Shown here one piece after another: positions 8,549-63,262 of a DNA stretch of 64,000 nt. The translations under genes and the position numbers were made by a program. This stretch comes from Jeotgalibacillus aurantiacus (lineage in GTDB: Bacteria; Bacillota; Bacilli; Bacillales; Jeotgalibacillaceae). Location: NCBI RefSeq assembly GCF_020595125.1, contig NZ_JACNMS010000003.1:62001-126000 (forward strand), written 5' to 3'. The notes below the pieces were generated by a model. It saw nothing but the letters and a program-made list of their open reading frames with translations. It was not told the origin of the DNA and ran no database searches. Numbering within the stretch: position 1 is the stretch's first letter; the number at the start of each line of letters is the position of its first letter.

Positions 8549-8770
8549 CTCTGGCTGAAAATGGTCCGAAAAGAAATTGTCATGTTTGCCCGAGTTTTTG
8601 CATCGATTCAGCTTTTTATTGTACTGTTTGAAAAAATATATGTACTGATTCAACTTTTTATTGTATTGTTGCACCTTCAAAGCCGTTTTTTTGTTATGTT
8701 CCATCCCGGGAATGTACTGTTTCAACAAATAATTGTCCTGTTTGAAAACAGAATTGTAACGATATCCCGC
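8549..8770 (+). repeat. 21-bp-period array, family A, copy 1
   Basis: A run of units of 20-22 bp, each beginning with a TTGTA(C/T)(T/C)G(A/T)TT-like word followed by ~8-10 variable bases. Similar full-length copies (~200 bp) are at 10890, 14337 (same orientation) and 32697, 32950, 37776, 57648 (opposite). Both strands stay open in one frame because 21 bp is seven codons. This explains the apparent ORFs here, which I do not count as genes. Confidence 0.8.
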
Positions 8771-8840
8771 ATCTCTCTTAGAACTCAGGGAGACATAAAA
8801 TCTACATTTTGAATCTTAAAATTGTTCCTGGAGGATCAAC

Positions 8841-9296
8841 ATGGCAACAGAGAAAGTACTGAGTTATATCTTGAGAAATAAAAACAACGACTGGCAATTA
8901 CTCGTTTTTAGTCAGACGGGTGCTCCGGAAGCGGGTATACAAATCCCCGGCGGAACGGTTGAGTCTTCTGATGAAAACTTAACGTCTACCATGATGAGAG
9001 AAATTGAAGAAGAAACTGGTTTAAATCAAAACCTTCATCTTCTCGAAAAAATATTATTTGAATATTATGATCATCCGATCAAACATGAGTTTCAAAAGAG
9101 GCATTTCTTTTTAGTCCTTCTTGAAGATGAAGGACTGGATCGCTGGCGACATATCGTGAAATCAACCGGTCAGGATCAAGGGATGGAATTCAACTATTTT
9201 TGGCTGGACCTTGAAAGTGACATTGTGTTAGCTGGAGATCAGCACGTTGGTGTTGGACATGTGAGGGATTACGTGAAGTACCAGTTAAAGAAATGA
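8841..9296 (+). CDS. NUDIX hydrolase
   Basis: A 151-residue protein with an intact Nudix box (GGTVESS...MMREIEEETGL, residues ~33-57), the Mg-binding motif for cleaving nucleoside diphosphates linked to a moiety X. The substrate is unknown. ATG 8841 follows GGAGG. It is monocistronic between an array and a REP-like terminator. The proteins DUF-like tail (residues 100-151) is ordinary for small NUDIX enzymes. Confidence 0.85.
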   Translation: MATEKVLSYILRNKNNDWQLLVFSQTGAPEAGIQIPGGTVESSDENLTSTMMREIEEETGLNQNLHLLEKILFEYYDHPIKHEFQKRHFFLVLLEDEGLDRWRHIVKSTGQDQGMEFNYFWLDLESDIVLAGDQHVGVGHVRDYVKYQLKK

Positions 9297-9300
9297 GAAG

Positions 9301-9357
9301 AGTGTAGAGTCTGAGGTCTGTCTCCAAACTCTTTAGGGACAGACCTTTTTTCTACTC
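9301..9357 (+). terminator. REP-like element acting as terminator between convergent genes
   Basis: GTAGAGTCTGAGGTCTG...AGGGACAGACC followed by a T run. The AGGTCTGTC and GGGACAGACC halves pair. Confidence 0.65.
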
Positions 9358-10146
9358 TCACATGGCTTTCTTCTGCATCCATTTCATCAGGTTGCTGGTG
9401 ACGTTTCGTGGGAGAAATCTTTCACCGAATACGAGTGATTTGTTGGGTAGGCCGTAGATGGCGACGATTTTGCCTTTTTTCCATGCCTGATAACCGAATT
9501 CGGCAACTTTTGATGCAGGGACTGGTTGAAAGCGTTGGAACAGGACGGATTTTTCAAGTCCCGTTACCTCTGAAAAACCGGTTTCGGTCGGGCCGGGGCA
9601 TAGGGCGGTTACTTTGACGCCGCTGTTCTTCAGTTCGGTTGCGAGCGCTTCTGTAAATGAAAGAACATATGCTTTTGAAGCGTAATAGACGGCCATTAAT
9701 GGTCCAGGCTGAAATGAAACGATCGAGGCGAGGTTGATAATGCCGCCTTGTTTTCTCGCGACCATAGCCGGGCTGAAAAGGCGAGTTAAAGCAGTTAACG
9801 CCATAATGTTGACCTGAATCATATCGTGATTTTTTTGCGGGTCCGTTTCGATAAAATCCCCGTAATCTCCAAAGCCGGCGTTATTAACGAGAACATCAAT
9901 ATGTGTACCGCTTGAAGCAACCGTATCATAAAGCTTTTCAGCATTTTTGTGCACCGATAAATCCATCACAATAACTGTCGCTTTAATCGGGTGGGCTGCC
10001 TCGAGTTCACGCTTAAGGTTTTCCAGTAAATCCTGCCGTCTGGCTACCAGTACAAGATCGAATCCTTCTCTCGCCATGATCTTTGAAAATTCAAGTCCAA
10101 TTCCGCTTGATGCGCCTGTAATAAGTGCCGTCCTGTTCATATTCAA
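9358..10146 (-). CDS. Short-chain dehydrogenase/reductase
   Basis: A 262-residue classical SDR: N-terminal nucleotide motif TGASSGIG (residues ~8-15), LVNNAGFG, active-site Ser in the IVSF region, and YYASK with the catalytic Tyr/Lys. The C-terminus resembles the SDR/YqjQ-DltE-like cytoplasmic oxidoreductases. It is divergent from a TetR gene across a palindromic operator, so repression by that protein is likely. The substrate is unknown. Confidence 0.9.
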   Translation of the reverse strand: MNMNRTALITGASSGIGLEFSKIMAREGFDLVLVARRQDLLENLKRELEAAHPIKATVIVMDLSVHKNAEKLYDTVASSGTHIDVLVNNAGFGDYGDFIETDPQKNHDMIQVNIMALTALTRLFSPAMVARKQGGIINLASIVSFQPGPLMAVYYASKAYVLSFTEALATELKNSGVKVTALCPGPTETGFSEVTGLEKSVLFQRFQPVPASKVAEFGYQAWKKGKIVAIYGLPNKSLVFGERFLPRNVTSNLMKWMQKKAM

Positions 10147-10163
10147 TCACTCCTTTTTAAAAT

Positions 10164-10222
10164 GTTGACAGTGTAAACTTTTCTGTAAATTCAGTATACT
10201 GCCGAATGTTTACATCGTCAAC
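10164..10222. promoter_or_regulatory. Imperfect palindromic operator between SDR and TetR genes
   Basis: GTTGACAGTGTAAAC (10164-10178) and GTTTACATCGTCAAC (10208-10222) are inverted copies (13 of 15 matches) flanking the shared promoter region. They probably bind the adjacent TetR protein. The long spacing suggests two half-operators rather than one site. Confidence 0.55.
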
Positions 10223-10270
10223 ATTTAACTTTATAATGAGTGAGAGATTCAGGGGAAAGAGGGATCCAAT

Positions 10271-10858
10271 ATGACGAGCAACACGTATCATCATGGAGAT
10301 TTAAGAAAAGATCTTATTGAAAATGGACTGGTCCTGCTGAATAAAGAGGGAATTGACGGTTTTTCTCTCCGAAAAGTAGCCGCCTTGTGCGGGGTCAGTC
10401 ATACTGCACCGTATCGACATTTTAAAAATAAGGAAGAACTGATACATGAAATTGCACAAGAGGTATGGAGGTCATTTTCTTCAGCGCTTGCTGACGCCGT
10501 AAATGCCTATCCGGAGAACCCGAAGCTTCAAATCATTGAAATGGGTAAGAGATACGTGCAATTTTTAGTGGAGAAGCCTGAATACCTTTCGTTTATCTTT
10601 ATGTCTGACAGTGCCATCCCGATACAGGTGAGTAAAACAGGAATCCATAGCCAGGTCGATGCCTTTAACGTTTTTAGCGAAAGTGCCAAAAACTACTTCG
10701 ATGAAGCTTCCATTGATCCTGCCGCTCATAAAGAAAAAACACTCCTCATGTGGAGCATGGTCCACGGCATGGCCCTGCTCGTTGCTAAGAAAAACCTCAT
10801 CTATCAAGGGGACTATATGGAGCTCGTTGAAAATATGCTTGTGCAGTATCTTGACTGA
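10271..10858 (+). CDS. TetR/AcrR family regulator
   Basis: A 195-residue protein. The N-terminal TetR helix-turn-helix (residues ~10-60; GFSLRKVAALCGVSHTAPYRHFKNKEELI) is followed by a C-terminal ligand domain like that of the TetR_C_33/WHG group. It is divergent from the SDR gene and likely controls it and itself. Confidence 0.9.
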   Translation: MTSNTYHHGDLRKDLIENGLVLLNKEGIDGFSLRKVAALCGVSHTAPYRHFKNKEELIHEIAQEVWRSFSSALADAVNAYPENPKLQIIEMGKRYVQFLVEKPEYLSFIFMSDSAIPIQVSKTGIHSQVDAFNVFSESAKNYFDEASIDPAAHKEKTLLMWSMVHGMALLVAKKNLIYQGDYMELVENMLVQYLD

Positions 10859-10889: not shown

Positions 10890-11112
10890 GCTCTGGCTGA
10901 AAATGGCGTGGAAAGGAATTGTACGGTTTGCCCGAGTTATTGTATCGTTTCAGCTTTTTATTGTACTGTTTGAAAAAATATATGTATTGATTCAACTTAT
11001 TATTGTATTGTTGCACCCGCGAAGGTGATTTTTTGTAATGTTCCATCTCGGAAATGTATCGTTTCAACAAATAATTGTCCTGTTCCAAAACAGAATTGTA
11101 TCGATCACACCT
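10890..11112 (+). repeat. 21-bp-period array, family A, copy 2
   Basis: Closest to copy 1, sharing even the leading CTCTGGCTGAAAATGG flank. Unit boundaries are at roughly 21, 22, 20, 31, 21, 20 and 21 bp; the single 31-bp interval is also present in the other copies. It is followed at once by a REP-like element. Confidence 0.8.
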
Positions 11113-11120
11113 CTCATCGA

Positions 11121-14312: not shown

Positions 14313-14336
14313 TTGTTGAGTTGGTGGACGTGCGTA

Positions 14337-14541
14337 TGTGCGAAAAGAAATTGTACTGATCGCCTGAGTTTTTGCATCGATTCAGTTTTTTATTGTACTG
14401 TTTGAAAAAATATATGTATTGATTCAACTTATAATTGTATCGTTGTACCTTCAAAGCCGTTTTTTTGTAATGTTCCATCCCGGAAATGTATCGTTTCAAC
14501 AAATAATTGTCCTGTTCCAGAGGAGAATTGTATTGGTTCCG
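14337..14541 (+). repeat. 21-bp-period array, family A, copy 3
   Basis: Same order of words as copies 1 and 2. It starts immediately after the BASS gene and ends before the 14573 terminator, so it would be transcribed in the 3' untranslated region of that operon. Confidence 0.8.
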
Positions 14542-14572
14542 AAACCCGAATAAGGACTGGCCCCATCTCTAC

Positions 14573-16467: not shown

Positions 16468-17352
16468 TTGATAAAAGTGAAAGTGGAACACATTGAGGCC
16501 TTCAGTTCGATTCCGGAAAAAGGGAATCCAGCGGGTGTTGTGCTGAATGGGGAGGATTATACATCAGAACAGATGCTTGAAATCGCGAAAAAAGCAGGGT
16601 TTAATGAAACTGCGTTTATACTTCCGTCACAAAGAGCTGATATCAGACTTCGTTATTTTACGCCTGGGGTTGAGATGAATTTATGCGGACATGCGACACT
16701 TGGTGCTGTTTACTGCTTACATATGAAGGGGCTGCTAGAGCAACCGACGATAACAATAGAAACCAATGCAGGGATTTTGCCCATAAGCCTTCGTGAAGAA
16801 AACGGTCAGATATTCATCACAATGCAACAGGCACAGTCGAAATTTCATCCCTTTGGTGGATCAAAAGCTGACGTAGCAAAGGCAATCGGCCTGAAGGAAG
16901 AAGAACTGGACGATGATCTGCCGATTATATACGGAAATACAGGAAACTGGACATTAATCGTTCCGATCAAAAGATTAGAAAGCTTTAAGCGAATGGAGCC
17001 CGATACAGAGCGCTTTCCGGATGTGTTGAATGAAATACCAAGTGCTTCAGTGCATCCCATTTGTCTTGAGGTGAGAGATGCTGACAATCACATGCACGCA
17101 CGCCACTTTTCTGCACCGGCTTCAGGAACCATTGAAGACGCCGTAACAGGGACTGCATCTGCAGTCATGGGCGCATACTATCACCAATTTATTCATCCAT
17201 CGTTACCTTTGCCGGCTACATTAAAAGTGGAACAAGGGCATGAAATCAACAAAGACGGACAAGTTTTTGTGCATTTGAAACAATTTAATGATGGTATTGA
17301 AGTATCAATATCCGGAACAGCTGTTTATGTTAAGACGATTGAAATAGCGTAG
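16468..17352 (+). CDS. PhzF-family isomerase-like protein
   Basis: A 294-residue protein matching the PhzF family (phenazine biosynthesis isomerase / diaminopimelate epimerase fold). Seen are the N-terminal region with FSSIPEKGNPAGVVL and the catalytic-Glu segment FNETAF, then RYFTPGVEMNLCGHATLGA, and the C-terminal half with TGTASAVMGAYY. Most bacterial members are of unknown substrate and unrelated to phenazines. The start is TTG behind GAGGGTGAGGG. The stop codon lies inside a perfect REP-like palindrome. Confidence 0.88.
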   Translation: MIKVKVEHIEAFSSIPEKGNPAGVVLNGEDYTSEQMLEIAKKAGFNETAFILPSQRADIRLRYFTPGVEMNLCGHATLGAVYCLHMKGLLEQPTITIETNAGILPISLREENGQIFITMQQAQSKFHPFGGSKADVAKAIGLKEEELDDDLPIIYGNTGNWTLIVPIKRLESFKRMEPDTERFPDVLNEIPSASVHPICLEVRDADNHMHARHFSAPASGTIEDAVTGTASAVMGAYYHQFIHPSLPLPATLKVEQGHEINKDGQVFVHLKQFNDGIEVSISGTAVYVKTIEIA

Positions 17353-17380
17353 ACTTGGGGTCTGACCCCAAGTCTACGCT
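17346..17380. terminator. Best-preserved REP-like palindrome, 16-bp arms
   Basis: Perfect arms 17346-17361 and 17365-17380 around CTG; core GGGGTCTGACCCC. It overlaps the phzF-like stop and ends 5 nt before the stop of lysE, followed by T residues. It serves both convergent genes. Confidence 0.85.
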
Positions 17381-17384
17381 TTTC

Positions 17385-18005
17385 TCATAGCATTCGAAAA
17401 ACCTCAATCAATATAAACCCGGCAATGCCCCACATAGAGACAGCTGAAATTTTGTTGATGATTTTCAGCCCTTTTCCTTCTTTATCAATCGTTTTGACGA
17501 TTCGGCCTATAATGGCGAGTAGTGTGAAGGCGATCCACGAAACGAGAATGCATGCGAGAGCGAATGCAATGAGTTCTGTTCGTTCTGTGTATTGAACGGC
17601 GTTAATGCCGATTACCCCGACCGTGTCTAAAATGGCGTGTGGATTGAGCAGGGAAATGGATAAAGCAAACAGGATTTGCTTTTGTACCGGAACGGCTTGT
17701 TTCTGATCGGAATCCCCTGCATCTGAATGCCAGATCGTCCATCCTATATACATAAGAAAAATGAAGCCAAGACTATACAAAATGATTTGAAGCTGGGGGA
17801 TAGCGATTACAACGAGTGAAACCCCTGACACGGAAATAAGAATCAGCAACGTGTCACACAGTGCGGCCGTCACGACAACAGGAAGTGCCATCACAAATTT
17901 CCTGTGGGCTGCACCCTGATTGAAAATAAAAATGTTCTGTGGACCGAGCGGCAAAATCAAAGCCGCTGATAAAATAAACCCGTGAATAAATGCACTTAAA
18001 ATGAT
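17385..18005 (-). CDS. LysE/ArgO-family exporter, apparent AUC/AUU start
   Basis: A ~206-residue membrane protein with six hydrophobic segments and the LysE signature LILPLGPQNIFIFNQGA. The first TTG (17960) would cut off the first helix. The reading continues upstream through a normal LysE N-terminus (about ILSAFIHGFILSAALILPLG) back to a TGA. The ribosome binding site AAGGAG (18013-18018) is correctly placed only for ATC 18005 or ATT 18002. The family exports basic or other amino acids. It is divergent from a MocR regulator. Confidence 0.82.
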   Translation of the reverse strand: MILSAFIHGFILSAALILPLGPQNIFIFNQGAAHRKFVMALPVVVTAALCDTLLILISVSGVSLVVIAIPQLQIILYSLGFIFLMYIGWTIWHSDAGDSDQKQAVPVQKQILFALSISLLNPHAILDTVGVIGINAVQYTERTELIAFALACILVSWIAFTLLAIIGRIVKTIDKEGKGLKIINKISAVSMWGIAGFILIEVFRML

Positions 18006-19521: not shown

Positions 19522-19659
19522 TTCCTATACAAGCCCTTCGTATAAGCCAGCTGCATAACCATGTTTGTTTGCTCCATGATACTCCCGCTTTCCTTATTGA
19601 TTTCCTAAAATACCTTTATAAAACAAATTATACCACTTTCAATCCTTATATTGTAAAAT

Positions 19660-19695
19660 TGTAGAGGTGGGATCTGTTCCTGCAGTCTACAGTGG
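19660..19695. repeat. REP-like element
   Basis: GTAGAGGTGGGATCTG...CAGTCTACAGTG, about 25 nt upstream of the DUF1430 gene start. Confidence 0.55.
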
Positions 19696-23565: not shown

Positions 23566-23618
23566 GGGATGTATATGTTGAATCTTTCTTAATCTGAAAT
23601 ATTCAACATGTACGTCCC
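23566..23618. repeat. GGACGTATAT-type hairpin
   Basis: 18-bp imperfect inverted repeat (23566-23583 with 23601-23618), related to the one at 1476-1526, between convergent genes. Confidence 0.65.
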
Positions 23619-23874: not shown

Positions 23875-23929
23875 ACGCAATCCCAAATCCTTCATAAACC
23901 GAATGATTCAGAATATACGTCCCCACGCT
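23875..23929. repeat. Half copy of GGACGTATAT-type hairpin
   Basis: Contains GAATGATTCAGAATATACGTCC, whose CGAATGATTCAG core also occurs in the 1476-1526 element. Only one arm is obvious. Confidence 0.5.
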
Positions 23930-25972
23930 TCACTCCACGCCTAATTTATCGAACACAAATGCGTAGTATTCGGCCAGTTCTTTGAGTTGGTCGAAGCGGC
24001 CGGATGCGCCGAAGTGGCCGGCGCCCATGTTGGTTTTCAGGACGAGGGTGTTGTTGTCTGTTTTCATGGTGCGCAGTCTGGCGACCCATTTGGCGGGTTC
24101 CCAGTAGGCGACGCGCGGGTCGTTCAGGCCTGTTGTGATGTACAGGTGTGGATAGTCTTTTTCTTCAACATTGTCGTATGGGCTGTAGGATTTCATATAG
24201 TTGTAATCCTCTTCATTTTTCGGATTGCCCCACTCATCCCACTCCAGCGTGGTTAATGGAATCGTTTCATCAAGCATCGTTGTTAGAACGTCAACGAAAG
24301 GCACTTCCGGCACGATTACTTTGAAAAGTGAGCCTTCCATATTCGACACGGCTCCAACAAGCAAGCCGCCTGCACTGCCACCGCGTGCAGCGATTTGATT
24401 AGTTGTGGTGTAGCCTTCTTCGATTAAAAAGCGCGCTACATCGATAAAGTCGTAGAACGAATTGAGTTTTTGATGTGTTTTTCCGTCTTCGTACCAGTGG
24501 CGGCCCATTTCACTTCCGCCGCGCACCTGTGCCGTAACGAAGATCACGCCTTTATCTAAAATCGGCAGACGGTAGGCGTTGAAGTAAGGGTTACTGCTGG
24601 CACCGTACGATCCGTAGCCTGTCAGAATCAGAGGAGCAGGTCCGTTATCAAGTGCAGCTTTTTTATAAACAGCCATCAATGGCACCTTCACGCCGTCACG
24701 TGCAGTAGCCCACAGCTGCTCCTGATGATAATCTTCAGGATGATACGCTCCATTTACCGTTGCGGTGTGAATCGTCTCTTTTTCACCTGTAGCGATCTGT
24801 AAACTGTAAATCGTATCCGGTGTCAGCAGGGATTCGTATTCGACTAAAAGCTCAGGCGAATCATAGCTTTGCCCGCCGGTAATTGAAAGGGTGTACAGTG
24901 ATTCATCCCAGATAAGCTGCTGGAGACTGTTGTCCTCAATTGTCCAGATCTGTGTCAGCCCATTTGCCCGCCCGTAAATGAAGAGCTTACTTAGCGTTGG
25001 ATACACAAACTGAAGGTAGCGGTTTTCATCGTATGGGATTACTTCCTCACGCTTTGAAAAATCCTTTACAGAACAGCGGACAAGCTTGAAATTAAGCGCG
25101 TCTTCATTTGTCAGAATGAGCAGATCCTCACCCCAATGCTCCACATCATACTTGATCCCTCTGCGTCGCTCATCGACAAGCTGAACTGGTGCCAGCGGAT
25201 TTTCAGCATCAACCAGGCGCACCTCATCTGTCATCGTTGACCCTGAATTCACCGTGATATACTTGCCGTTTTGCGTTTTTGAAATGATTAATGCAAACGT
25301 TGAATCCTTTTCTTCATATAAAAGCGTATCAGGTTCCGTGCTGCCAACCTCGTGGCGCCACAAATAGCAAGGGCGCTGCACCTCATCAACCGTTACATAA
25401 AAAAGGTATGTACCGCACTGACTCCACTCCACACTGCTGTAAATATAAACGTCACTGATTTTATCAGACAGCAGCTTACCTGTTTGAAGATCTTTCACGT
25501 AAATCGTATAACGGTCTGAGCCGTCGCGGTTCTCGAGGTAAGCAAGCTTCGTCTGCTCCTCATTCAACCGCTGCAAAGATACGCTCAAATAATCGTCCTC
25601 TCCGGCAAGCTCATTTAAATCAAGAATGATCTCTTCAGACGCTTCAGCTAAAAGTGATCGGTTCGCCGCCTTTTTACGCGCATAAACCGGATACTGCTGC
25701 TCTTTATCATAACGGGAATAATAAAAATACGCCCCGTTTTGAACCGGCACCTTCACCTCAGCCTCAGGCACACGGGCCACCATACCCTCATAAATCTCAT
25801 TCGTCTGCTTTTCAAGAGGCGTCATCACCTCACGATAATACGCATTCTCCTCCTCCAAATACTCAACCACATCCGGATTCGAACGATCCCTCATCCAATA
25901 ATAATCATCCTCCCGCACATCACCATGAATCTCGTGCACAAAAGGCTCGCGTTTTGCTATAGGTACCTTCAT
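23930..25972 (-). CDS. S9A-family oligopeptidase B (prolyl oligopeptidase family)
   Basis: A 680-residue serine peptidase. The N-terminal seven-bladed propeller (~1-400) begins VPIAKREPFVHEIHGD...DDYYWMRDR. The C-terminal alpha/beta hydrolase has the nucleophile in ARGGSAGGLL, Asp in LNDPRVAYWEP and His in GAGHFGASGR. Typical cleavage is after basic residues in short peptides. ATG 25972 has AAGGGAG at 7 nt; the longer frame to 26047 lacks one. Confidence 0.9.
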   Translation of the reverse strand: MKVPIAKREPFVHEIHGDVREDDYYWMRDRSNPDVVEYLEEENAYYREVMTPLEKQTNEIYEGMVARVPEAEVKVPVQNGAYFYYSRYDKEQQYPVYARKKAANRSLLAEASEEIILDLNELAGEDDYLSVSLQRLNEEQTKLAYLENRDGSDRYTIYVKDLQTGKLLSDKISDVYIYSSVEWSQCGTYLFYVTVDEVQRPCYLWRHEVGSTEPDTLLYEEKDSTFALIISKTQNGKYITVNSGSTMTDEVRLVDAENPLAPVQLVDERRRGIKYDVEHWGEDLLILTNEDALNFKLVRCSVKDFSKREEVIPYDENRYLQFVYPTLSKLFIYGRANGLTQIWTIEDNSLQQLIWDESLYTLSITGGQSYDSPELLVEYESLLTPDTIYSLQIATGEKETIHTATVNGAYHPEDYHQEQLWATARDGVKVPLMAVYKKAALDNGPAPLILTGYGSYGASSNPYFNAYRLPILDKGVIFVTAQVRGGSEMGRHWYEDGKTHQKLNSFYDFIDVARFLIEEGYTTTNQIAARGGSAGGLLVGAVSNMEGSLFKVIVPEVPFVDVLTTMLDETIPLTTLEWDEWGNPKNEEDYNYMKSYSPYDNVEEKDYPHLYITTGLNDPRVAYWEPAKWVARLRTMKTDNNTLVLKTNMGAGHFGASGRFDQLKELAEYYAFVFDKLGVE

Positions 25973-29214: not shown

Positions 29215-29345
29215 ATATGGAGGTTCGCAGGATTTTGATCGTTGTTCGTAAAAAACCGGCGATGATTCGTAGAATGCTGGGGATGGTTCACAAAATAAGA
29301 GGATCGGTTCGCAAAATTTCAGGTTACGTTCCAAGAATTGTGTCA
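29215..29345 (+). repeat. 21-bp-period array, family B
   Basis: Six units of 20-23 bp built on the word GGTTCGCAAAAT (variants GTTCGTAAAA, ATTCGTAGAAT, GGTTCACAAAAT) followed by ~10 variable bases. There is no sequence identity with family A, but the architecture is the same. REP-like elements flank it on both sides. Confidence 0.75.
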
Positions 29346-29359
29346 TTTGACCTATGAGT

Positions 29360-29393
29360 TTAGAGGTGGGGTCTGTCCCAAAGTCTGCGCTCG
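29360..29393. repeat. REP-like element
   Basis: TTAGAGGTGGGGTCTGTCCC...AAAGTCTGCGCT, just upstream of the GNAT ribosome binding site. Confidence 0.6.
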
Positions 29394-29411
29394 ACGAAAG
29401 GAGATATCTGA

Positions 29412-29816
29412 ATGGAATGGTCAAAAAGCATGTACAGAGTTAGTGATGACGTAGCACTCTTGGATATTCATAGAGTCCATGAGCTTCTTTCAAGTACTTA
29501 TTGGGCTAAAGACAGGTCATTAGAAATGATTGAAAAAACCGTTGCGCATTCTATGGCTTTTGGTGTCTATAAAAATGAGAAACTGATCGGTTTCGCAAGG
29601 GTGATTACAGATCAAGCCGTTTTCTCCTGGGTGATGGATGTAGTCATAGATGCCGACTACAGAGGTGATGGGCTCGGACAATGGTTAATGGAATGCATAC
29701 TCGCCCACCCGTCCATCAAGCACACCGCCTTTGCCCTGGCCACTTCTGATGCACAAGGGTTTTACAATAAATTCAATTTCAAAAATAATGAATGTATGAC
29801 GAGACCATTAGGGTAG
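29412..29816 (+). CDS. GNAT acetyltransferase
   Basis: A 134-residue GNAT protein. The acetyl-CoA binding segment is VVIDADYRGDGLGQWLMECIL (R-x-x-G-x-G/A type, residues ~76-96), with LATSDAQGFYNKFNF as the C-terminal core motif. AAAGGAG precedes the ATG. The substrate is unknown. Confidence 0.88.
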   Translation: MEWSKSMYRVSDDVALLDIHRVHELLSSTYWAKDRSLEMIEKTVAHSMAFGVYKNEKLIGFARVITDQAVFSWVMDVVIDADYRGDGLGQWLMECILAHPSIKHTAFALATSDAQGFYNKFNFKNNECMTRPLG

Positions 29817-29873
29817 AGAAAGAGTCTGACCCCAAGTCTACGGTAGATTTGGGGACAGACTCTGATACTACAG
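29812..29873. repeat. Two adjacent REP-like elements
   Basis: GTAGAGAAAGAGTCTGACCCCAAGTCTACG followed at once by GTAGATTTGGGGACAGACTC. The two are inverted relative to each other and overlap the GNAT stop. Confidence 0.65.
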
Positions 29874-31595: not shown

Positions 31596-31600
31596 TTATG

Positions 31601-32641
31601 ATGGTAACAGCGAAAGCGAGAGCGGTGGATGGTCCGAAGGATTCTTTTCGTGCTGCTGAGATTGAACGCCGGGCGTTAGATGCAACGGATGTATTGATTG
31701 AGATTAAGTTTGCGGGCATTTGCCACTCGGACATTCATACAGCGCATGGTGAATGGGGCGAGGTTCAGTATCCGCTCGTTCCCGGACATGAAATCGCCGG
31801 GATTGTCACTGAGGTAGGTAAAGATGTGAAGAAGTACAAGGTTGGCGATCGTGTAGGGGTCGGCTGTATGGTCGATTCGTGCGGTAAATGTAAGAACTGC
31901 CAGGAAGGTGAGGAGCAGTATTGCTTAGAGGGCAATATCCCAACCTACGCCGGCGTTGATAAATACGGTGATTATACCCAGGGCGGTTACTCTACGCACA
32001 TCGTTGTCACAGAGGATTTTGTTCTGAAGATTCCGGATAATATTCCGCTTGATAAAGCTGCGCCACTGCTATGCGCAGGTATTACAACGTACTCACCTTT
32101 AAACCACTGGAACGCCGGTCCTGATAAAAAAGTGGCTGTCATCGGAATGGGCGGACTTGGCCATATGGCGGTTAAAATTGCACACGCCATGGGATCTGAA
32201 GTGACCGTTCTGTCTCAGACGCTCAATAAACAGGAAGACGGCATGAAATTCGGTGCAAGTGAGTACTATGCAACGAGTGAAAAAGAAACATTCGAAAAGC
32301 TTGCCGGTAAATTTGATCTGATCATCAATACGGTCAGCGCAAAGATTGATATGAATCAGTATTTGTCACTGCTTGACCTGAACGGTACACTTGTAAACGT
32401 AGGTGCACCGGCAGAACCGCTTGATATCAACGTGTTCTCACTTATTCCGCACCGACGCTCATTCGCAGGCTCACTAATCGGAGGTATTCGTGAAACACAG
32501 GAAATGCTCGACTTCTGTGCCGAACACGACATCGCTCCGCAAATCGAAGTCATCTCAGCAGACGACATCGATAAAGCCTACGACCGCGTACTCAAATCAG
32601 ACGTCAAATACCGTTTTGTGATTGATACAAGCACGATCTAA
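31601..32641 (+). CDS. Zinc-dependent alcohol dehydrogenase (cinnamyl-alcohol-dehydrogenase-like / AdhA)
   Basis: A 346-residue MDR enzyme. Catalytic zinc ligands: Cys in [15 protein letters not shown] and GHE in PGHEIAG. Structural zinc: four cysteines in [20 protein letters not shown]. The Rossmann motif is [17 protein letters not shown]. Relatives reduce aldehydes with NADPH and, in B. subtilis, are induced by aldehydes via a MerR-type regulator; none is adjacent here. Tandem ATG codons occur at 31598 and 31601, and the second has better spacing to GGAGG. Confidence 0.9.
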
Positions 32642-32696: not shown

Positions 32697-32915
32697 AGGC
32701 GATTTTGGAACAATACAATTAAATGTTGAAATAGTACAATTCTATTTTGAAACATAACAATTCCGGGGTGAAGCGATACAAAAACGTTGGTTTGAAAGGC
32801 TAACGATACAATAAAAATCTGAAACGATACATATATTTTCCGGAACGCGATAAATAAAAATCGAAACGATTGAATAACCCGAGCGAACGTTACAATTCCA
32901 CTCAGCACGCCCACA
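32697..32915 (-). repeat. 21-bp-period array, family A, copy 4
   Basis: Opposite orientation to copies 1-3. It is near-identical over its whole length, including the flanking CACTCAGCACGCCCACACGG, to copy 5, which starts about 250 bp downstream. Confidence 0.85.
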
Positions 32916-32949
32916 CGGAAAGGCCTCTTGCTCTTCTGTGGTGGTAGGC

Positions 32950-33170
32950 TTTAGAACAATACAATTAAATGTTGAAACAGTACAATTCTATTTTGAAACA
33001 TAACAATTCCACGGTGAATCAATACAAAAACGTTGGCCCAAAAGGCTAACGATACAATAAAAATCTGAAACGATACATATATTTCCTGGAACGCGACAAA
33101 TAAAAATTGAAACGATTGAATAACCCGAGCGAACGTTACAATTCCACTCAGCACGCCCACACGGAACCGA
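32950..33170 (-). repeat. 21-bp-period array, family A, copy 5 (tandem with copy 4)
   Basis: Differs from copy 4 at scattered single positions, about 90 percent or more identical by eye. The two form a direct tandem duplication before the two-component operon. Confidence 0.85.
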
Positions 33171-35819: not shown

Positions 35820-37704
35820 GCTCGTCCGGCGCAATATGCTGGCTAACATCCGCCAATACTATTTGTATTTTTTCTCACTGATTTTCAGTGTAATGCTTTA
35901 TTTTATTTTCAGCACAATGCAATATAGTGAGCTGATCACGCAGGCGGTTTCATTCTCGCAAGGCATTGGTGCGTCGTTCCGGTCTGGTGTCTTTTTCCTG
36001 GCAGCGATCATGCTTGTCTTCGTCACCTATGCGAAAAATCTGTTCTTTAAAAGGCGGGGCAGAGAGATCGGACTGTATCAGCTGATTGGTCTTTCGCGGG
36101 GAGCGGTTATCCGGATGCTGCTGATCGAAAATCTCATTATGATGACATTAGCAGCACTTGTGGGTACGCTATTAGGGCTTCTTTTCTCAAGGCTGTTCCT
36201 GCTATTATTTTTCGAAATCATGCGTTTTGATATGAACGTCGGCTTTCAAATTTCTACTGCAGCACTATTGCAAACGGGTGCACTGCTCATATTGTTGCTT
36301 GTGGTGACCTCCTGGCAGACGATCAGATTTGTGCGGAAGCACACGCTGGTCCAGCTGTTTCAGTCTAAAGCTGAAACGGAACAGATTCGTGAAATCAAAC
36401 CGGTCCGTCAGCTGCTGATGGGGCTTGCCGGAATTTTGCTTGTTGGATTCGGTTACTGGCTATCGGGGAGAATGCTGAATGCTTTTCTGTTAGTGAATAT
36501 GCTCCTCGTGTTGTTCTCCACGGTCTTCGGGACCTATCTTGTGTTCCGTGTATCGATCGGCTGGCTGCTGACCCTTTACCGTAAACAGATGAACGGACAT
36601 TTACAGTTCAAGCATGCACTGTCGCTGGCACCATTGATTCACCGCCTGAAGAGCAACGCGAGAATGCTGACCTTAATCGCTACGCTTTCTGCGATTACAC
36701 TTACGCTGGTAACGGGCGCGTATTCTCTCTATTACTCTGCTGAAGAAGAAGCCGATATTTTATATCCGCATGATTTTATTTTTCTTGAAGCTGATGATGC
36801 TGAATACGCTACGGAATTTGAGGGCCGTATGCAAGAGGCGGATCTTTCATATAAAGCTCATGAGATTGAAACGTTCTCTCATGATGTAACCTATGAGAAC
36901 TTTGATCAGGGGTTAGGTATCCCTATTGACTCCAATCATCCGACTTTTGTTTCGGCGAGCGATTTGAGTGAAGCCGGGGTTGAGGTATCAGTCAAACCGG
37001 GAGAAGCCGTATATTTTGGCGGCATGGTCGTACCATCAATGCCTGAGGACACCACTGTAAATTTAGCAGGAAAATCATTAGAACTAGTGGAAATTAAAAA
37101 TAAAGCAGCGCTGAATTATGGCGTCCAGTTCAATGTATTTGCGTTAAATGAAGAGGATTACCGTGCAGTAAAACCTGATTACGAATCTAACTATCTTACG
37201 TTTAATTTGGAGAATCAGGCTGAACGGGAACAAGCCAATGAAATGTATCATGCCATCTCACCTGATCCTGAAGAAGGCATGCTGTATAGCACCAATGTTG
37301 ATGAAACGCTGATACGCATGGAGATGTCAGGCGTACTTATTTTCATCGCAGGATTTTTAGGCATTGTATTCTTAAGTGCAACGGGCAGCATTCTATACTT
37401 TAAGCAGATGACAGAGGTCGAGGAAGAGAAAGGAAGCTACCGCACACTTCGTCAGCTCGGCTTTACCGTTGGCAACATGATGAGCGGCGTCGGACGAAAG
37501 CAGCTTCTGTTCTTCGCGATTCCGCTCGTCATCGGACTTGGCCACACCTACTTTGCCCTGAAATCCGTCGCCTTTCTATTCAGGACAAACATCACAGTTC
37601 CCGTCATTATCTCAATCAGCATCTTTACTCTGATCTATCTGGCATTTTATCTCCTAAGCATCACCAACTCCCGCAGCGAAATCACACGCGCGATCAGAGG
37701 GTAG
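35806..37704 (+). CDS. BceB-like FtsX-family permease
   Basis: A 632-residue permease with ten TM segments and the large outer domain (~315-505) between TM7 and TM8 that marks BceB-like transporters. ATG 35806 lies behind GGAGGG. These transporters both confer resistance to cell-wall-active peptides, by freeing their lipid targets, and signal drug flux to the kinase. The specific peptide cannot be read from sequence. Confidence 0.9.
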   Translation: MKLSELVRRNMLANIRQYYLYFFSLIFSVMLYFIFSTMQYSELITQAVSFSQGIGASFRSGVFFLAAIMLVFVTYAKNLFFKRRGREIGLYQLIGLSRGAVIRMLLIENLIMMTLAALVGTLLGLLFSRLFLLLFFEIMRFDMNVGFQISTAALLQTGALLILLLVVTSWQTIRFVRKHTLVQLFQSKAETEQIREIKPVRQLLMGLAGILLVGFGYWLSGRMLNAFLLVNMLLVLFSTVFGTYLVFRVSIGWLLTLYRKQMNGHLQFKHALSLAPLIHRLKSNARMLTLIATLSAITLTLVTGAYSLYYSAEEEADILYPHDFIFLEADDAEYATEFEGRMQEADLSYKAHEIETFSHDVTYENFDQGLGIPIDSNHPTFVSASDLSEAGVEVSVKPGEAVYFGGMVVPSMPEDTTVNLAGKSLELVEIKNKAALNYGVQFNVFALNEEDYRAVKPDYESNYLTFNLENQAEREQANEMYHAISPDPEEGMLYSTNVDETLIRMEMSGVLIFIAGFLGIVFLSATGSILYFKQMTEVEEEKGSYRTLRQLGFTVGNMMSGVGRKQLLFFAIPLVIGLGHTYFALKSVAFLFRTNITVPVIISISIFTLIYLAFYLLSITNSRSEITRAIRG

Positions 37705-37762
37705 TATTGGGGTCTGTCCCTTGGTCTACGGTAGACCTGAGGGACAGACCTTTTTTCTACCT
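37700..37762 (+). terminator. Double REP-like element with T run
   Basis: GTAGTATTGGGGTCTGTCCC...GTCTACG then GTAGACCTGAGGGACAGACC and TTTTTT. GGTCTGTCCC and GGGACAGACC are exact inverses, giving a strong terminator for the Bce-like operon. Confidence 0.75.
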
Positions 37763-37775
37763 TTGGTGTGTGGCT

Positions 37776-37968
37776 CTGGAACGATACAATTAAAAGTTGG
37801 AACAGTACATTTCTATTTTGAAACATAACAATTCCGTGGTGAATCGATACAAAAACGTTAGTTTCAAAGGGTAACGATACGATAAAAATCTGAAACGATA
37901 CATATATTTTCCGGAACGCGACAAATAATATTTGAATCGATTTAAAAACTACCATAAATGATACAATT
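37776..37968 (-). repeat. 21-bp-period array, family A, copy 6
   Basis: Same orientation as copies 4 and 5 and close to them until about 37925, where the last units diverge. It directly follows a REP-like element. Confidence 0.8.
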
Positions 37969-38032
37969 CCATTTACTTCTATAAATGGGTCATTTACGAT
38001 AGTAGTATCGTTATCTATTAGGAGGAACGAAT

Positions 38033-47179: not shown

Positions 47180-47455
47180 CTAACCAGATAACAGCGTTGA
47201 TAAGGAAAGTAGACAAGAGGTAGTTTGATAGAGAGCTTCTGATGGTGGAAATGAAGCAGATGATCCTTGTTGAAAATGGCCTTTGAGCTTCGTACCGAAC
47301 ATTTAAAGTAGGCTACGACGAGATGAGCACTCGTTACAACGGCGGCAGTATGAATACGTACTGACAGAGGCACATGGTGTGAGCTGTGTGTAAATTTAGG
47401 TGGTAACACGAGCATACTCGTCCTAATCGATACTTCGATTAGGACGTTTTTTTTA
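47180..47455 (+). promoter_or_regulatory. T-box riboswitch (methionine-type) upstream of metG
   Basis: Typical elements in order: AGTAG..AGAGGTAG of Stem I, GAGAGC followed by GATGGTGGAAAT (distal loop), candidate specifier AUG at 47276-47278, T-box word TTAGGTGGTAACACG (47396-47410), and terminator with perfect 12-bp arms (47419-47430, 47435-47446) plus T run. Uncharged tRNA-Met binding should disrupt the terminator and switch on the downstream MetRS. Confidence 0.88.
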
Positions 47456-49211: not shown

Positions 49212-49587
49212 ATGACATTTATTAAAAAACACCCCTACATAACCGGTTCATTAGTTGCTTTTATGACACTGCTGATTTTAATCGCATACTTCATTTACTG
49301 GGCTTTTTTCAGTATTGCACGGTTAGAGCCGGGTGAGCTGATTGCTGAAGAAACGTCACCAAACGGCGAATATACTGTAAAAAACCTATCTGAATAACGG
49401 CGGAGCAATCGTTGACTTCGCAGTGCTTGGCATTCTTGAATTTGAGAATTCGTCTAAAGGGTCTAAAAACATTTACTGGCAGTATGAAACAACCGAGGGA
49501 AATATCGAATGGCAGGATGAAGATACAGTAAAGATCAACAACATTGAGCTTGATGTGCCGGATGAGAAGTATGATTACCGTAGATGA
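49212..49587 (+). pseudogene. DUF5412-like protein, frameshifted in an A6 run
   Basis: The 61-residue open frame (49212-49397) ends early, but the sequence continues to encode YLNNGGAIVDFAVLG...SKNIYWQYETTEGNIEWQDEDTV and ...IELDVPDEKYDYRR in the +1/-1 shifted frame up to TGA 49585-49587. Removing one A from the AAAAAA at 49379-49384 restores a ~124-residue DUF5412-like protein with one TM (~13-35). It may be a true mutation, a sequencing error or transcriptional slippage on the A run. Confidence 0.8.
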
Positions 49588-49614
49588 GGGGTCTGACCCC
49601 GATTCTACGCTCAG
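49580..49614. repeat. REP-like palindrome
   Basis: CGTAGATGAGGGGTCTGACCCC...TCTACGC, overlapping the DUF5412 stop. Confidence 0.7.
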
Positions 49615-49633
49615 GGTAATGAAAGGAGTAAAA

Positions 49634-50952: not shown

Positions 50953-51150
50953 GGTGTTGAAGTGATGGAATCATGTTTTGAAATGAAGGAATCACGCAGC
51001 TGGAAAGATGGAATCCGTTCGTGGAATGAAGGGAAAAAAGGGCAGCGTAGCCCTTGTGATTGAATTAATTTCCAGAAAGAAGGAATAAAATTTTCAAACG
51101 AAGGAAATAAAATCTAAAAAGATGGAATGACTTTCGAAAGTGAAGGAATC
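50953..51150 (+). repeat. 21-bp-period array, family C, copy 1
   Basis: About nine units, most exactly 21 bp, starting GATGGAATC or GAAGGAATC/AAA followed by ~12 variable bases. A homologous array in the opposite orientation is at 63055-63262. One unit has an in-frame stop, so it is not simply coding. Confidence 0.8.
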
Positions 51151-51194
51151 CCGTCTTACGGCCTCCGCCACGCAAACTATCTCAAGCCAGCACC

Positions 51195-56099: not shown

Positions 56100-56107
56100 A
56101 ATAACAA

Positions 56108-57647: not shown

Positions 57648-57842
57648 AATCGTAGTGATACAATCCACTTCTGAATCAGTACATATCCATTTTGAAACGT
57701 TACAATTATTGATCGTAACAGTACAAAAAACCATGGCTGGAAGGCTAACGATACAATTAAATCCTGAAACGATGAAATAAAAAATTCATACAGTACAATA
57801 AAAATCCGGAACGATTGAATAACTCGAGATAACGATACAAAA
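57648..57842 (-). repeat. 21-bp-period array, family A, copy 7 (divergent)
   Basis: Same opposite orientation as copies 4-6 but the most divergent. Words GATACAAT, GTACAA, GTTACAAT and GAAACGAT are kept at ~21-bp steps. It is followed at 57860 by an unusual C-run. Confidence 0.7.
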
Positions 57843-57964
57843 GCACCGGACCCTTCGATCCCCCCCCGCCCCCCGATCACACCAATTTGACGCGGACAAA
57901 CCAACCTGAAACCAGCCATCCAGCTCCGCGTCACAAAATCATACTAAGAAAGGACTCACCAGAC

Positions 57965-59982: not shown

Positions 59983-60006
59983 GCGCAGGGCGTTATCCCT
60001 GCGCTT
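59983..60006. terminator. Hairpin between convergent genes
   Basis: GCGCAGGG-CGTTAT-CCCTGCGC followed by TTTG. Confidence 0.65.
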
Positions 60007-60008
60007 TG

Positions 60009-62798
60009 TTAACTCAGCTCTTTTGCAAACATCTCCTGCATCTCACCGGCAGGCACAGGTCTACTGAAATAAAAGCCCTGCATGCAATGGCAGCCTTCCT
60101 GCATCAGGCGATCGATCTGCTCCTTCGTCTCAACACCCTCAGCAATGACCCTGTAATCAAGGCGTTTTGCCATATGGATAATCGTTGAGTTTAAAGCGGC
60201 AATGTGTGGAATCTGAATCATATTTTCAACAAACGAACGGTCAATTTTAATGCAGTCGATAGGGAAATCTTTAATATAGCGTAACGACGAGTAGCCGGTG
60301 CCAAAGTCATCAAGCGACAGGCTGATCCCTAGAGCTTTTAGTTCGTGCAGCTTCTCAATATCATGGGCCTGAATCAAAGTGTGCTCTGTGAGTTCGATCT
60401 CCAGATATTTGGGCTCCAGATGTTCCTCTTCCAACATGGATTTCACCATTTGAACCACGCGCGGGTGCTGAATCTGGCGGATAGAGAAATTCACTGCCAT
60501 GGTGATGTTGTGTCCCAGATCATGCCATTTCCTCAGCTGCCTCAGTGACTCGCGAAGTACCCATTCACCAATTTTTAATATCATGCCGGTTTCCTCAGCT
60601 AGTGGAATAAATTTATCAGGCGGGACTTTACCAAGCTCGGGATGGGTCCAGCGAAGAAGCGCTTCTACGCCGGTAATCTGCTTATTCTCATAGTCGACTT
60701 TCGGCTGATAATAAACCTTCATCTCATTTCGCTCAACAGCCTGATAAAGGGCATTCAGTAAATTAGACCGCTCGATATTTTTCTCCATGAGCATTCTGGT
60801 GAAGTAGTGATAGGTGCCACCTTGTTCTTTAGCCACATACATGGCGGTGTCTGCATTGCGGATCAGATCATCTTCATTTTGAGCATCATCCGGATACATA
60901 CTGATACCAAGGCTTGCGCCGGTAAATAACTCATGTTTACCAATGTGTATAGGGTCTTTCAGAACATGAAGAAACTGTGCCGCGATTTCATCCAGTTCTT
61001 CCGGACGTTCTACCTCCTCCACTAAAACAATAAATTCATCACCACCAAGTCTTCCGACCGTAATCCTGTCAGTGACAAGCGTTTGGAAACGCTCTGCCAC
61101 CTCGCAAAGAACCCGGTCTCCAATCGTATGACCATAGGAATCGTTGATCAGCTTGAATCGGTCAAGATCCAGAAACATCACGGCTAGTCGATGCTTCACA
61201 GGATCGATGTATTTTAATGCATTTTTGATTTTCTGAACAAGATAAGTCCGGTTTGGCAACCTTGTAATCAGGTCATAGTAGGCCTGATTATGAATGCGTT
61301 TTTCCATTTGTTTGCGTTCTGTCACATCACGAAAAGTGACGACAACACCATTATGATGATCCCCATTTTGAATCGGCGTAGAGACGTATTCAACATCAAA
61401 AACCGCGCCGTCTTTTTTAGCGAATTTTTCATTTACAGAGTACGCTTTTTGACCTGTTAATAAGGACTGGTGGATTGGAGAGCTCATCTTTTCGTAAAGT
61501 TCCTGCTCGTTTTTATAATGAGCGATCACGTCATCCTGTGTTTTGCCGACAAGCTCTTCAACATCATAGGCAAGCATGGAAGCAGCGGTCGGATTACAAA
61601 ATGTAATCACGCCATCTTTGTTCAGTCCGTAAATACCTTCCCCGGCAGAATTTAAAATGGATTCGTTCTTTTTGCTGAGCAATCTCAGATCGTTATTCAT
61701 AGTTTCCAGAATTTCATTTTTTTCCTGAAGCTCACGTGTTCGATGTCTGATAATCCGCTCCAGCTGCTCAAGATGAATCAGATTATCGAGTACCCCGGCT
61801 GTTGCCCCGGCAATCGAGATGGCGAGCTGCTGTTCGGCATCTGTATAATGGCGGGGCCCATCGAAGCTGACGACACCAAGTGTTCCGAGCACCTCTCCAC
61901 GTGAAATAAGTGGCAGTGTATACATGGACCTGATTCCAAAACGCTCAATGGCTGTTTTGTTGGGCCGTGGATCATTGATGGCATCTTCAATTAATAAGGG
62001 TCGTTTTGTTGCGACCACTTCTTTGAAAACAGGATCCTCCTGAAAATTCACTTTTACCTCGCGATGAACCTGAATCCAGTCTTCTTCCTTCCACTCGCTG
62101 TCAGCTGACAGTCGGTGAGGAGAGGGGGTCTGCGTCTCAATATCCTTCAGGTGCGCGCCGACGTTCGGATTGTTCAGCGCCTGTCCGACATATCGAAAGC
62201 TTGTTTCAAGTGCTTCCTGTAGGGTAAGACAGCGCGACAGGTCATTCGTTGCATCAAGCAGCAGCTGCTTATCTTTCAGCAGTTTTTTTGAGGCAGTAAA
62301 CAATTCAGTGTTACGAATCGCCACAGCTGCCATCATCACGTAGGATTCGATTGCCTCAAGTTCCTCTTTGTTTAAATGGAGCGGCGAGCTGTAGTCAAAC
62401 AGAAAAACAAGACCGTAAAATGAGTTCTCAAAATAAATAGGCATCCCAAAAACTGATTTGATTTTAAATAATTCAATTGGAATCGGGTCTGGACGGGAAT
62501 CTTTACTTGTATCCGGTATATAAATGCTCTTTTTCGTCTGAACAATCTCGGCTGCAAACCGGTCATTTTTCAAATCAATCACCATTTTATCGAGCGTGAT
62601 TCCATTAAAATTATCCGGTTTTCCGACAAAACCCTGAAACTGATCCTTTGCAATCGGCAAATAAATGCCCACTGCATCACACCTGACAATTTCTTCAGAA
62701 ATGGCCATGACAACCTGTTCAAGCACAGACTTCTTATCCAGCTTCAAATGAATCATCTTTGTAATTTCGGCTAACCTTGAGTAACGATCATGGTGCAT
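60009..62798 (-). CDS. GAF-GAF-PAS-GGDEF-EAL cyclic di-GMP enzyme
   Basis: A 929-residue cytoplasmic protein from ATG 62798 (AGAGAGGTGA upstream). Order: GAF (~20-165), GAF (~190-345), PAS (~375-490), GGDEF (~500-660; GRLGGDEFIVL, intact active site) and EAL (~670-925; GVEALLRWTHPE and later conserved ELTEHT, DDFGTGYSS). Both catalytic motifs look complete, so it could make and break c-di-GMP under control of the GAF/PAS sensors. Confidence 0.92.
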   Translation of the reverse strand: MHHDRYSRLAEITKMIHLKLDKKSVLEQVVMAISEEIVRCDAVGIYLPIAKDQFQGFVGKPDNFNGITLDKMVIDLKNDRFAAEIVQTKKSIYIPDTSKDSRPDPIPIELFKIKSVFGMPIYFENSFYGLVFLFDYSSPLHLNKEELEAIESYVMMAAVAIRNTELFTASKKLLKDKQLLLDATNDLSRCLTLQEALETSFRYVGQALNNPNVGAHLKDIETQTPSPHRLSADSEWKEEDWIQVHREVKVNFQEDPVFKEVVATKRPLLIEDAINDPRPNKTAIERFGIRSMYTLPLISRGEVLGTLGVVSFDGPRHYTDAEQQLAISIAGATAGVLDNLIHLEQLERIIRHRTRELQEKNEILETMNNDLRLLSKKNESILNSAGEGIYGLNKDGVITFCNPTAASMLAYDVEELVGKTQDDVIAHYKNEQELYEKMSSPIHQSLLTGQKAYSVNEKFAKKDGAVFDVEYVSTPIQNGDHHNGVVVTFRDVTERKQMEKRIHNQAYYDLITRLPNRTYLVQKIKNALKYIDPVKHRLAVMFLDLDRFKLINDSYGHTIGDRVLCEVAERFQTLVTDRITVGRLGGDEFIVLVEEVERPEELDEIAAQFLHVLKDPIHIGKHELFTGASLGISMYPDDAQNEDDLIRNADTAMYVAKEQGGTYHYFTRMLMEKNIERSNLLNALYQAVERNEMKVYYQPKVDYENKQITGVEALLRWTHPELGKVPPDKFIPLAEETGMILKIGEWVLRESLRQLRKWHDLGHNITMAVNFSIRQIQHPRVVQMVKSMLEEEHLEPKYLEIELTEHTLIQAHDIEKLHELKALGISLSLDDFGTGYSSLRYIKDFPIDCIKIDRSFVENMIQIPHIAALNSTIIHMAKRLDYRVIAEGVETKEQIDRLMQEGCHCMQGFYFSRPVPAGEMQEMFAKELS

Positions 62799-63054
62799 TT
62801 GTTTCACCTCTCTCAATCTTTATGTGTTGAGACATTACCGTTTCGCGTAGTTGACCGTAAACATTTCGACATGATATACAAATTTTTATTCATATTCGTC
62901 ATTCTTCAATATATACCCTTCTTTTTATAGTATAAAAGTATGTGTTTTAAAATTTTTCCTACTTATCAGGGGTGGTCCGACGTGTCAGTTATTTAAAGGG
63001 TGATTAAATGAAGAAGAGAGTTGGAGTGGGTGAAACTTTATCTGGAGATGTCTT

Positions 63055-63262
63055 TTGAAAGAATTCCTTCATTCGTTGAAGTTATTCAGTCTTTTTAAAA
63101 AATGTATTCGCTCGTTTGAGATTTTAATTCCTTCTTTCTGGGATTTAATTCATTCAGTAGCGCTGTGACCTGCCTTTATTCCTTCATTCAAATTCTGGAT
63201 TCTTTCATTACCCCGATCGGATTCCTTCACTCCAGATAACGATTCCTTCACTTCATCCGCAA
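63055..63262 (-). repeat. 21-bp-period array, family C, copy 2
   Basis: On the minus strand the units GAAGGAATC / GAAAGAATC / GAAGGAATT recur every 21-23 bp. A stretch around CCAGAAAGAAGGAATTAAAA aligns with 51074-51095 in copy 1, showing common ancestry. Confidence 0.75.

Follow-up and report, generated by a model that had tools for sequence, protein, structure and literature searches.

A 64,000-nucleotide stretch of the Jeotgalibacillus aurantiacus genome (positions 62,001 to 126,000 of contig NZ_JACNMS010000003.1, here G000:C3:62001-126000, the window) carries ten arrays in which a constant word recurs every 21 bp: seven belong to word family A, one to family B and two to family C. The source genome, G000, is 3.5 Mb in size, and C1 and C3 denote contigs of it. 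The original prediction, made from the letters of the window, had given the coordinates and words of these ten arrays correctly and understated their extent; all ten proved real. We interpret the arrays as phased, iteron-like, putative protein-binding DNA that is carried as exchangeable cassettes, with a probability that we put at about 0.5. This interpretation is drawn from the constancy of the layout, the set-wise change of words, the constraint on the words, a spacing of two helical turns, indifference to strand and a place at gene ends.

Autocorrelation set the 21-bp period apart from all other lags, in keeping with the earlier description of steps of 20–23 bp, mostly 21. In the window (150-base windows, z > 4.5), lag 21 was found at 715 window positions and lags 19, 20, 22 and 23 at none; lags 18 (74 positions) and 24 (322 positions) were confined to 2.1–2.7 kb and 43.4–43.6 kb, coding repeats that were also the source of some lag-21 positions. 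Nine of the ten window arrays were detected at lag 21, with one tandem pair merged into a single stretch. Over 764 kb of G000 (z > 5), lag 21 accounted for 58 non-coding stretches, its harmonic, lag 42, for 26, and every other lag from 10 to 45 for at most one. Coding repeat stretches in the same 764 kb occurred at many lags, mainly multiples of three, nine of them at lag 21. A further 20 stretches gave 32 lag-21 matches, including a few coding ones, and no other lag between 15 and 30 had more than three. Lag 21 therefore dominates both the window and the non-coding DNA of the 764 kb, and the free drift of unit length that had been named as evidence against a shared architecture was not seen.

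The 764 kb hold 70 array entries of roughly 126–200 bp, about 1.5% of the DNA read, a share that may be high because some stretches were selected for containing matches. Their steps measure 21 bp in 415 of 544 cases, a figure biased towards 21 since the dynamic-programming phaser, which is blind to the words, allows just 19–23, 28–34 and 40–44 and penalizes steps other than 21; the autocorrelation is free of that bias. Whole-genome searches of G000 returned at least 25 matches for A and at least 38 for C (40 candidates scored for each), and nine for B.

The G000 arrays use at least six words in two layouts, with the constant word taking up about 9–16 bp of each 21-bp unit. In the type I layout, shared by families A (AAACGATACAAT), C (GTGAAGGAAT) and G (TTCTGTCGATAG, whose opposite-strand reading contains the D word), nine words are set at steps of 21,21,21,30,21,21,21,21, with one 22-bp step in C; the fixed 30-bp fourth step of A and C and the 22-bp step of C go beyond what had been predicted. 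The orientation of the 30-bp step, after word 4, is constant within each family. The type II layout, shared by families B (GGTTCGCAAGATTTTG) and F (AGTTCGTGAGGTTA), sets six words 21 bp apart and closes with a tail near GACCTAT, the last step of F being 20 bp. By the best match near the array end, this tail core is exact in 7 of 16 type II arrays and carries one to three changes in the other nine. To be classified by layout an array needed two or more word matches, and the long-step table further required seven to nine steps. A split of four and five words appeared in 22 of the 33 classified arrays with exactly one step of 28–32 bp (C 11, A 7, G 4); nine of the other 11 were off by one or two words (five were short one at the left) and two were B arrays that did not fit. 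Among arrays with no long step, six words were counted in 8 of 11 B and 5 of 8 F arrays. The type II layout also appears in arrays of genomes G006 and G007, and less clearly in G008.

Words of the tailed arrays mostly start GTTC or TTTC, keep A and T bases at equal distances and resemble variants of a single site. Within C arrays, intermediates such as AAACGATTGAAT connect the A and C words, and some F units have their variable part in common. Words are replaced as a set while the layout stays constant. The original prediction had seen three unrelated families with one architecture and suggested that it might have emerged independently or been kept through divergent evolution. One design with different words did stand up; the lack of relationship did not, because the A/C intermediates and the common frames indicate that the families are not unrelated and that the design was not invented three times. 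The irregular nine-word frame is common to A, C and G, the six-word frame with a tail to B and F, and A and C in particular were not invented independently.

Comparison of G000 with a sister genome (G004; 7.8% difference over aligned bases) was used to ask how the words evolve in place, a check on word conservation that had been proposed with the prediction. The comparison covers 29 arrays hand-listed from the lag scan and BLAST matches. Scan matches at C3 1169, 64424, 87799 and 196153, which are weak or coding, are not in this set, nor are additional tandem copies at 94950, 139349 and 139587. The word columns of each unit were defined by the remaining units of its array, which keeps a unit's own change from swaying its class. 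Divergence was 0.186 in the least and 0.073 in the most conserved columns of the 29 arrays; with two misaligned arrays left out (27 of 29), word columns had diverged by 0.057 and variable columns by 0.165. The corresponding values were 0.194 at fourfold-degenerate sites (3475/17881), 0.024 at second codon positions and 0.089 in other intergenic DNA, the word-column value being about 0.3 of that at fourfold sites. In 200 rotations of the substitution pattern within arrays, the largest difference was 0.042, compared with 0.109 observed, and the drop in word columns held for every base, being smallest for C (from 0.163 to 0.118). The bases between words thus appear to be near-neutral and the words not, with constraint acting on the words where they stand.

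Single loci give the same picture. At C1:615815, six B-like words are in register in both species and the variable halves differ; at one B locus, 31% of bases have changed with no gap, and the B word is recognizable in all six units. At 0.80–0.92 identity, gaps occurred at 7.6 per kb in 18 arrays versus 15.0 per kb in 67 control segments of intergenic DNA, a count from which arrays under 0.8 identity (9 of 41) were excluded.

Arrays of different families can occupy the same site in the two species. At C3:215.9-216.3 kb, G000 has an A array and G004 a C array between almost identical flanks, with an inverted repeat (GTTTGCCGCG...CGCGTCAAAC) on both sides. At C1:789.8-790.2 kb, G000 has six units of family H (ACTTGGTCACTTT) and G004 a C array; the flanks are homologous (left 79% over 1628 bases, right 86% over 2808), and an inverted repeat like that of the first site lies on the right. 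Such a swap could alternatively be differential loss from a former two-array locus, and neighbouring unlike arrays do exist (an A fragment and a C array near C3:207.9-208.2 kb). The motif GTTTGNCGCG or its complement lay within 150 bp of an array at 10 of 10 occurrences in 240 kb, compared with 7% of random positions. In the window, a 54-bp inverted repeat (GTTTGACGCG...CGCGACAAAC; 63268–63321, unstranded) adjoins the family C array at 63055–63262. This repeat may be an anchor or an exchange site; in complete form it was found in G000 and G004 alone among 12 genomes, and being limited to these two it cannot account for arrays elsewhere.

Whole arrays also come and go. At C1:763.7 kb and C1:620.9 kb an array present in G000 is absent in G004, where little is left (248 versus 2 bp and 271 versus 21 bp). 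Among 58 scanned G000 positions, which include a few coding repeats, 38 match G004 at an identity of at least 0.80, and the remaining 20 have diverged, are missing or swapped, or could not be mapped. Whole arrays have been duplicated in tandem more than once: the pair at 32.7–33.2 kb of the window is a single copy in G004, and at C1:746.4-747.1 kb (L203, L263) about four type II F arrays follow each other roughly 194–215 bp apart, their near-identical units being a sign of recent expansion.

The arrays lie behind genes. Of 46 array entries, 43 had both neighbours called, and 40 of these stand behind at least one gene end. Neighbours were convergent in 19 cases, co-directional in 21 and divergent in 3, compared with 30, 79 and 29 for 138 background gaps longer than 150 bp (array-bearing gaps included); genes here are simple open reading frame (ORF) calls, of at least 80 amino acids (aa) for arrays and at least 100 aa for the background, and the placement list contains a few doubtful irregular-step entries (for example, L051 1296). 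A terminator-like hairpin was present between stop codon and array in 27 of 54 pairs, versus 25 of 320 shuffles in a control made for left-hand genes only. Relative to the upstream gene, 24 arrays had the same orientation, 25 the opposite and 5 an unclear one, which amounts to no strand preference.

Searches with the A and C queries across 61 genomes, with no more than 12–13 candidates scored per genome, gave matches in G000 and G004; the exceptions were three short single C matches with E near 1e-4 in other families. With one mismatch allowed, a pair of B/F words 21 bp apart was found 36 times in G000, 31 times in G004 and once or twice in each of G006, G008 and G009, where the matches count because arrays are present there. 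Word-blind scans of 20 stretches from the genus revealed 11 non-coding lag-21 arrays. Eight of them are in G007; the other three, in G006 and G009, stand at places known from the B/F pair search. Three G007 arrays were phased from an earlier scan. Nineteen stretches from seven genomes of other families held three arrays, all in one stretch of G015, and nine stretches of G017, G020 and G056 had no lag-21 array. At 80 loci around DUF4256 genes, which are not a random sample, we found three non-coding lag-21 arrays (in Bacillus sp. ISL-37, Neobacillus sp. SuZ13 and Sporosarcina luteola), a 20-bp array in Virgibacillus halodenitrificans, and four other lag-21 matches that look coding. In this sample, arrays with further words occur in part of the other Jeotgalibacillus genomes and in a few other members of the Bacillales.

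Three loci outside the window show related or more complex repeats. Sporosarcina luteola L174 (19859–20546) has a 103-bp block of five words (21,21,21,21,19) repeated about six times. Virgibacillus halodenitrificans L175 (10632–10926) has a strict 20-bp array with nine steps of 20, a sister design with another period. In G029 L222 (12675–12929), steps alternate between 30 and 23 bp in a 53-bp unit (GTATACCGCAGGAG/GTATAGCAGAAGAG).

If the arrays are bound by protein, each would offer six (type II) or nine (type I) sites to a sequence-specific DNA-binding protein, with the word as the contacted site and the intervening bases free. Spacing by two helical turns would align the bound proteins for joint and perhaps cooperative binding, as on plasmid iterons, and a complex behind genes could serve as a boundary or anchor. 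Arrays are copied, duplicated in tandem, shortened unit by unit and exchanged for others at fixed sites; a new family would arise once a copy carrying a changed set of words, with a reader protein of altered specificity, spreads. Of the functions originally offered for the 21-bp spacing, phased protein binding survives as a putative one, and RNA structure and heptad peptides, weighed below, do not.

Plasmid and partition iterons are direct, non-palindromic sites of about 20–22 bp, two turns apart, in small fixed numbers and with a conserved core. The arrays resemble them in having direct repeats about two turns apart, a fixed small number of units, a conserved core and a looser remainder. They differ in being dispersed over the chromosome (the 70 entries in 764 kb), in lying behind genes and in using several words per genome, and no initiator or partition family is among the 20 annotated window ORFs; we do not claim membership of the iteron class. 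A bolder and distinctly tentative extension, possible although we would not bet on it, is that these are chromosomal iterons of the Bacillales: by extrapolation, hundreds of six- and nine-site arrays per genome in the genus, served by several related reader proteins, with the words as a fast-changing code on two scaffolds and the cassettes organizing or insulating the chromosome.

Several observations weigh against binding-site arrays. We found no candidate binding protein, replication-initiator and partition families being absent from the 20 annotated ORFs of the window, and the 30-bp step amounts to a fractional 2.86 helical turns at 10.5 bp per turn. Family H was classified as nine words in 2 of 2 cases, outside the six-word layout. 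All evidence of selection comes from one species pair (G000/G004), and gene conversion from unit to unit with tracts below about 10 bp could mimic word constraint. Gap counts made without matching for divergence gave 11.2 per kb in arrays versus 10.1 per kb when swapped and part-deleted arrays were counted, and 6.1 versus 8.4 per kb, little lower, in a second unmatched count. The reversed control of the word-pair pattern matched once in each of four genomes. Whole units or whole arrays have been lost in the sister species at several loci, which makes it unlikely that any one array is essential; and no non-coding lag-21 array was found in six stretches of G003 or four of G010, both of the same genus, so arrays are not required across it.

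Much of the evidence on mobility would also fit selfish, non-autonomous elements of no use to the host, in which the words would be bound by a transposase or recombinase whose gene lies elsewhere, and each word family would stem from one in a series of bursts of spread driven by an enzyme of its own. Many dispersed and tandem copies, presence or absence with small remainders, family replacement at two sites and the inverted-repeat motif found near an array at all ten of its occurrences agree with this idea, which we consider doubtful but worth taking seriously. In an inserted copy, however, the words should decay neutrally, whereas the divergence of word columns is about 0.3 times that of fourfold sites, and the 38 of 58 positions matched in the sister species point the same way. 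The aligned C copies have direct ends, not inverted ones, and the Y1 transposase family, found in 9 of 12 genomes of the genus, has no match (E ≤ 0.001) in array-bearing G007; other transposase families were not searched. Binding-site arrays and selfish elements overlap as explanations, because a mobile array can also be bound. It is unlikely that the arrays are repeats under no or weak selection whose words look constrained, with no protein bound, because gene conversion in very short tracts, from unit to unit or from copy to copy, keeps them similar. Unit and element duplications and unit deletions do occur, and the variable part common to some F units would be expected of conversion; yet conversion should homogenize the bases between words too, and these diverge nearly at the fourfold rate. 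Common unit numbers and a 30-bp step kept across different words are likewise unexpected for freely expanding repeats.

Transcription into a non-coding RNA, such as a sponge with many sites for a protein, would suit arrays that adjoin genes, and direct repeats can bind proteins as RNA. We regard it as improbable. Against 40 dinucleotide shuffles each, 28 C copies folded like the shuffles (mean z 0.10 on the plus strand, −0.32 on the minus strand), and neither of the two gathering-level Rfam matches in the window lies on an array; an alignment fold of the C copies, with three of the 28 excluded from the alignment, scored 0 for real and shuffled columns and was not used. The even split of orientations (24 versus 25) and the hairpin that separates gene from array in half of the pairs also speak against it, while this structure-based evidence leaves room for unstructured RNA binding. 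Coding heptad peptides (7 codons = 21 bp) are more improbable still, to the point of being nearly dismissed. The reverse strand of many C units can be read as I-P-S-F-x-x-x, and ORFs of 87–104 aa overlap A arrays, but the best frame is stop-free in just 7 of 28 C copies, the frame is broken by 20- and 22-bp steps at fixed places, and the one array-spanning ORF tested had no Pfam match.

Known classes of repeat were also compared. Like repetitive extragenic palindromes (REPs), bacterial interspersed mosaic elements (BIMEs) and repeats associated with REP-associated tyrosine transposases (RAYTs), as presented in PMC3733652, the arrays have many dispersed intergenic copies in mosaic and tandem form; REPs are short palindromes, whereas these are direct word arrays without excess folding (C copies). 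RAYT-linked REPs differ further in that array-bearing G007 lacks the Y1 transposase, and mobilization by a REP/RAYT system was rejected, as the distribution of that transposase does not track the arrays. The bcr1 element of Bacillus cereus, of the miniature inverted-repeat transposable element (MITE) type, is likewise small, non-coding and dispersed in the Bacillales according to PMC3733652; unlike bcr1, the arrays have no terminal inverted repeats in the C alignment, an internal word period and a layout that outlasts the words. A MITE was rejected because the ends of C copies, judged by eye in this family, are the same word in direct orientation. Two near-empty orthologous sites showed no clear target-site duplication, and their gap edges are inexact. 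For the other outcome named against the prediction, decaying copies of one known IS or MITE, the searches covered plasmid and phage collections, Rfam, Pfam and the Y1 transposase family. The clustered close direct repeats of class 8n4g24 (at least four octamer copies with gaps of at most 24 bp; PMC4060949) would cover some arrays; in the part of that survey available, the patterns are generic, and 21-bp phasing, fixed unit number and word families are not described.

CRISPR (clustered regularly interspaced short palindromic repeat) arrays consist of nearly identical repeats, at least 23 bp long, and unique spacers between them. They were rejected on the short constant words in a 21-bp unit; cas genes were not sought. 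Plasmid or phage origin was rejected after BLAST gave no match for A and B in plasmids and for C in phages, the combinations searched. Exact word pairs in viral contigs numbered none for A, 19 stretches for C and 2 for B-like words, and none was such an element by eye in the 20 of 21 stretches that were phased (L293 was left unphased); L295 is a different type of repeat, short, exact and in tandem, and L297 is coding.

We found no description of such arrays in the open-licence literature, which is weak evidence of absence. Since no compared family (iteron, REP/BIME, MITE, CRISPR, Rfam, heptad gene) fits, we rate the arrays, from sequence comparison, as a candidate for a categorically new class of element. 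If bound by protein, they would be an unrecognized layer of chromosome organization and a record of change in DNA recognition, in which the scaffold stays constant, all six or nine sites shift together and the co-evolution of protein and site can be read. Even if they are selfish, the combination of constraint in place and replacement at fixed sites would be unusual for small bacterial repeats.

Within the window, the type I arrays of family A lie at 8578–8775 (minus strand; nine words with the 30-bp step; homology match 8549–8763), 10920–11117 (minus; match 10891–11105), 14352–14549 (match 14323–14537, word on the minus strand), 32706–32903 and 32952–33149 (plus; tandem copies 1 and 2, matches 32704–32920 and 32950–33166), 37777–37974 (plus; match 37775–37991) and 57649–57865 (plus), the last a diverged copy with just 62% identity to the reference copy. 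The tandem pair (32706–33149) sits behind a terminator-like hairpin of the gene at 31598–32641. The type II array of family B occupies 29222–29347 on the plus strand, with six words like GGTTCGCAAGATTTTG and every step 21, and its tail (29340–29356, plus) reads GTGTCATTTGACCTATG. Of the two type I arrays of family C, that at 50960–51158 (plus; word TGAAGGAAT; steps 21,22,21,30,21,21,21,21) also lies behind a terminator-like hairpin; that at 63055–63262 (minus) fell below the autocorrelation threshold and was identified by its match to other C copies, with 72% identity to the first over 193 bases. The 20 annotated window ORFs belong to ordinary chromosomal families, among them NUDIX, TetR, GntR/FCD, ECF sigma factor, YndJ, DUF4256 and response regulator, and two of the 20 have no Pfam match.

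Other repeats and RNAs share the window. REP-like palindromes such as GTAGACTTGGGGTCTGACCCCAAGTCTACG lie at 2998–3040, 4394–4477, 6819–6861, 17331–17390, 19646–19688, 29357–29401, 29795–29854, 37698–37742 and 49562–49621; given two Y1 (RAYT-type) transposase matches in G000, they are probably ordinary REPs. A second small palindromic repeat, one copy of which reads GGGACGTATATCCTGAATCATTTGATTAACGAATGATTCAGGAT, has inverted copies at 1463–1526, 23575–23617 and 23880–23935. The two Rfam matches are a T-box leader at 47188–47428 (plus strand) and the Bacillus small RNA ncr1575 at 479–663 (minus strand). At 1868–2432, repeats of 141, 48 and 24 bp lie within an ORF (1820–2764, minus strand) that possibly encodes a repeat protein.

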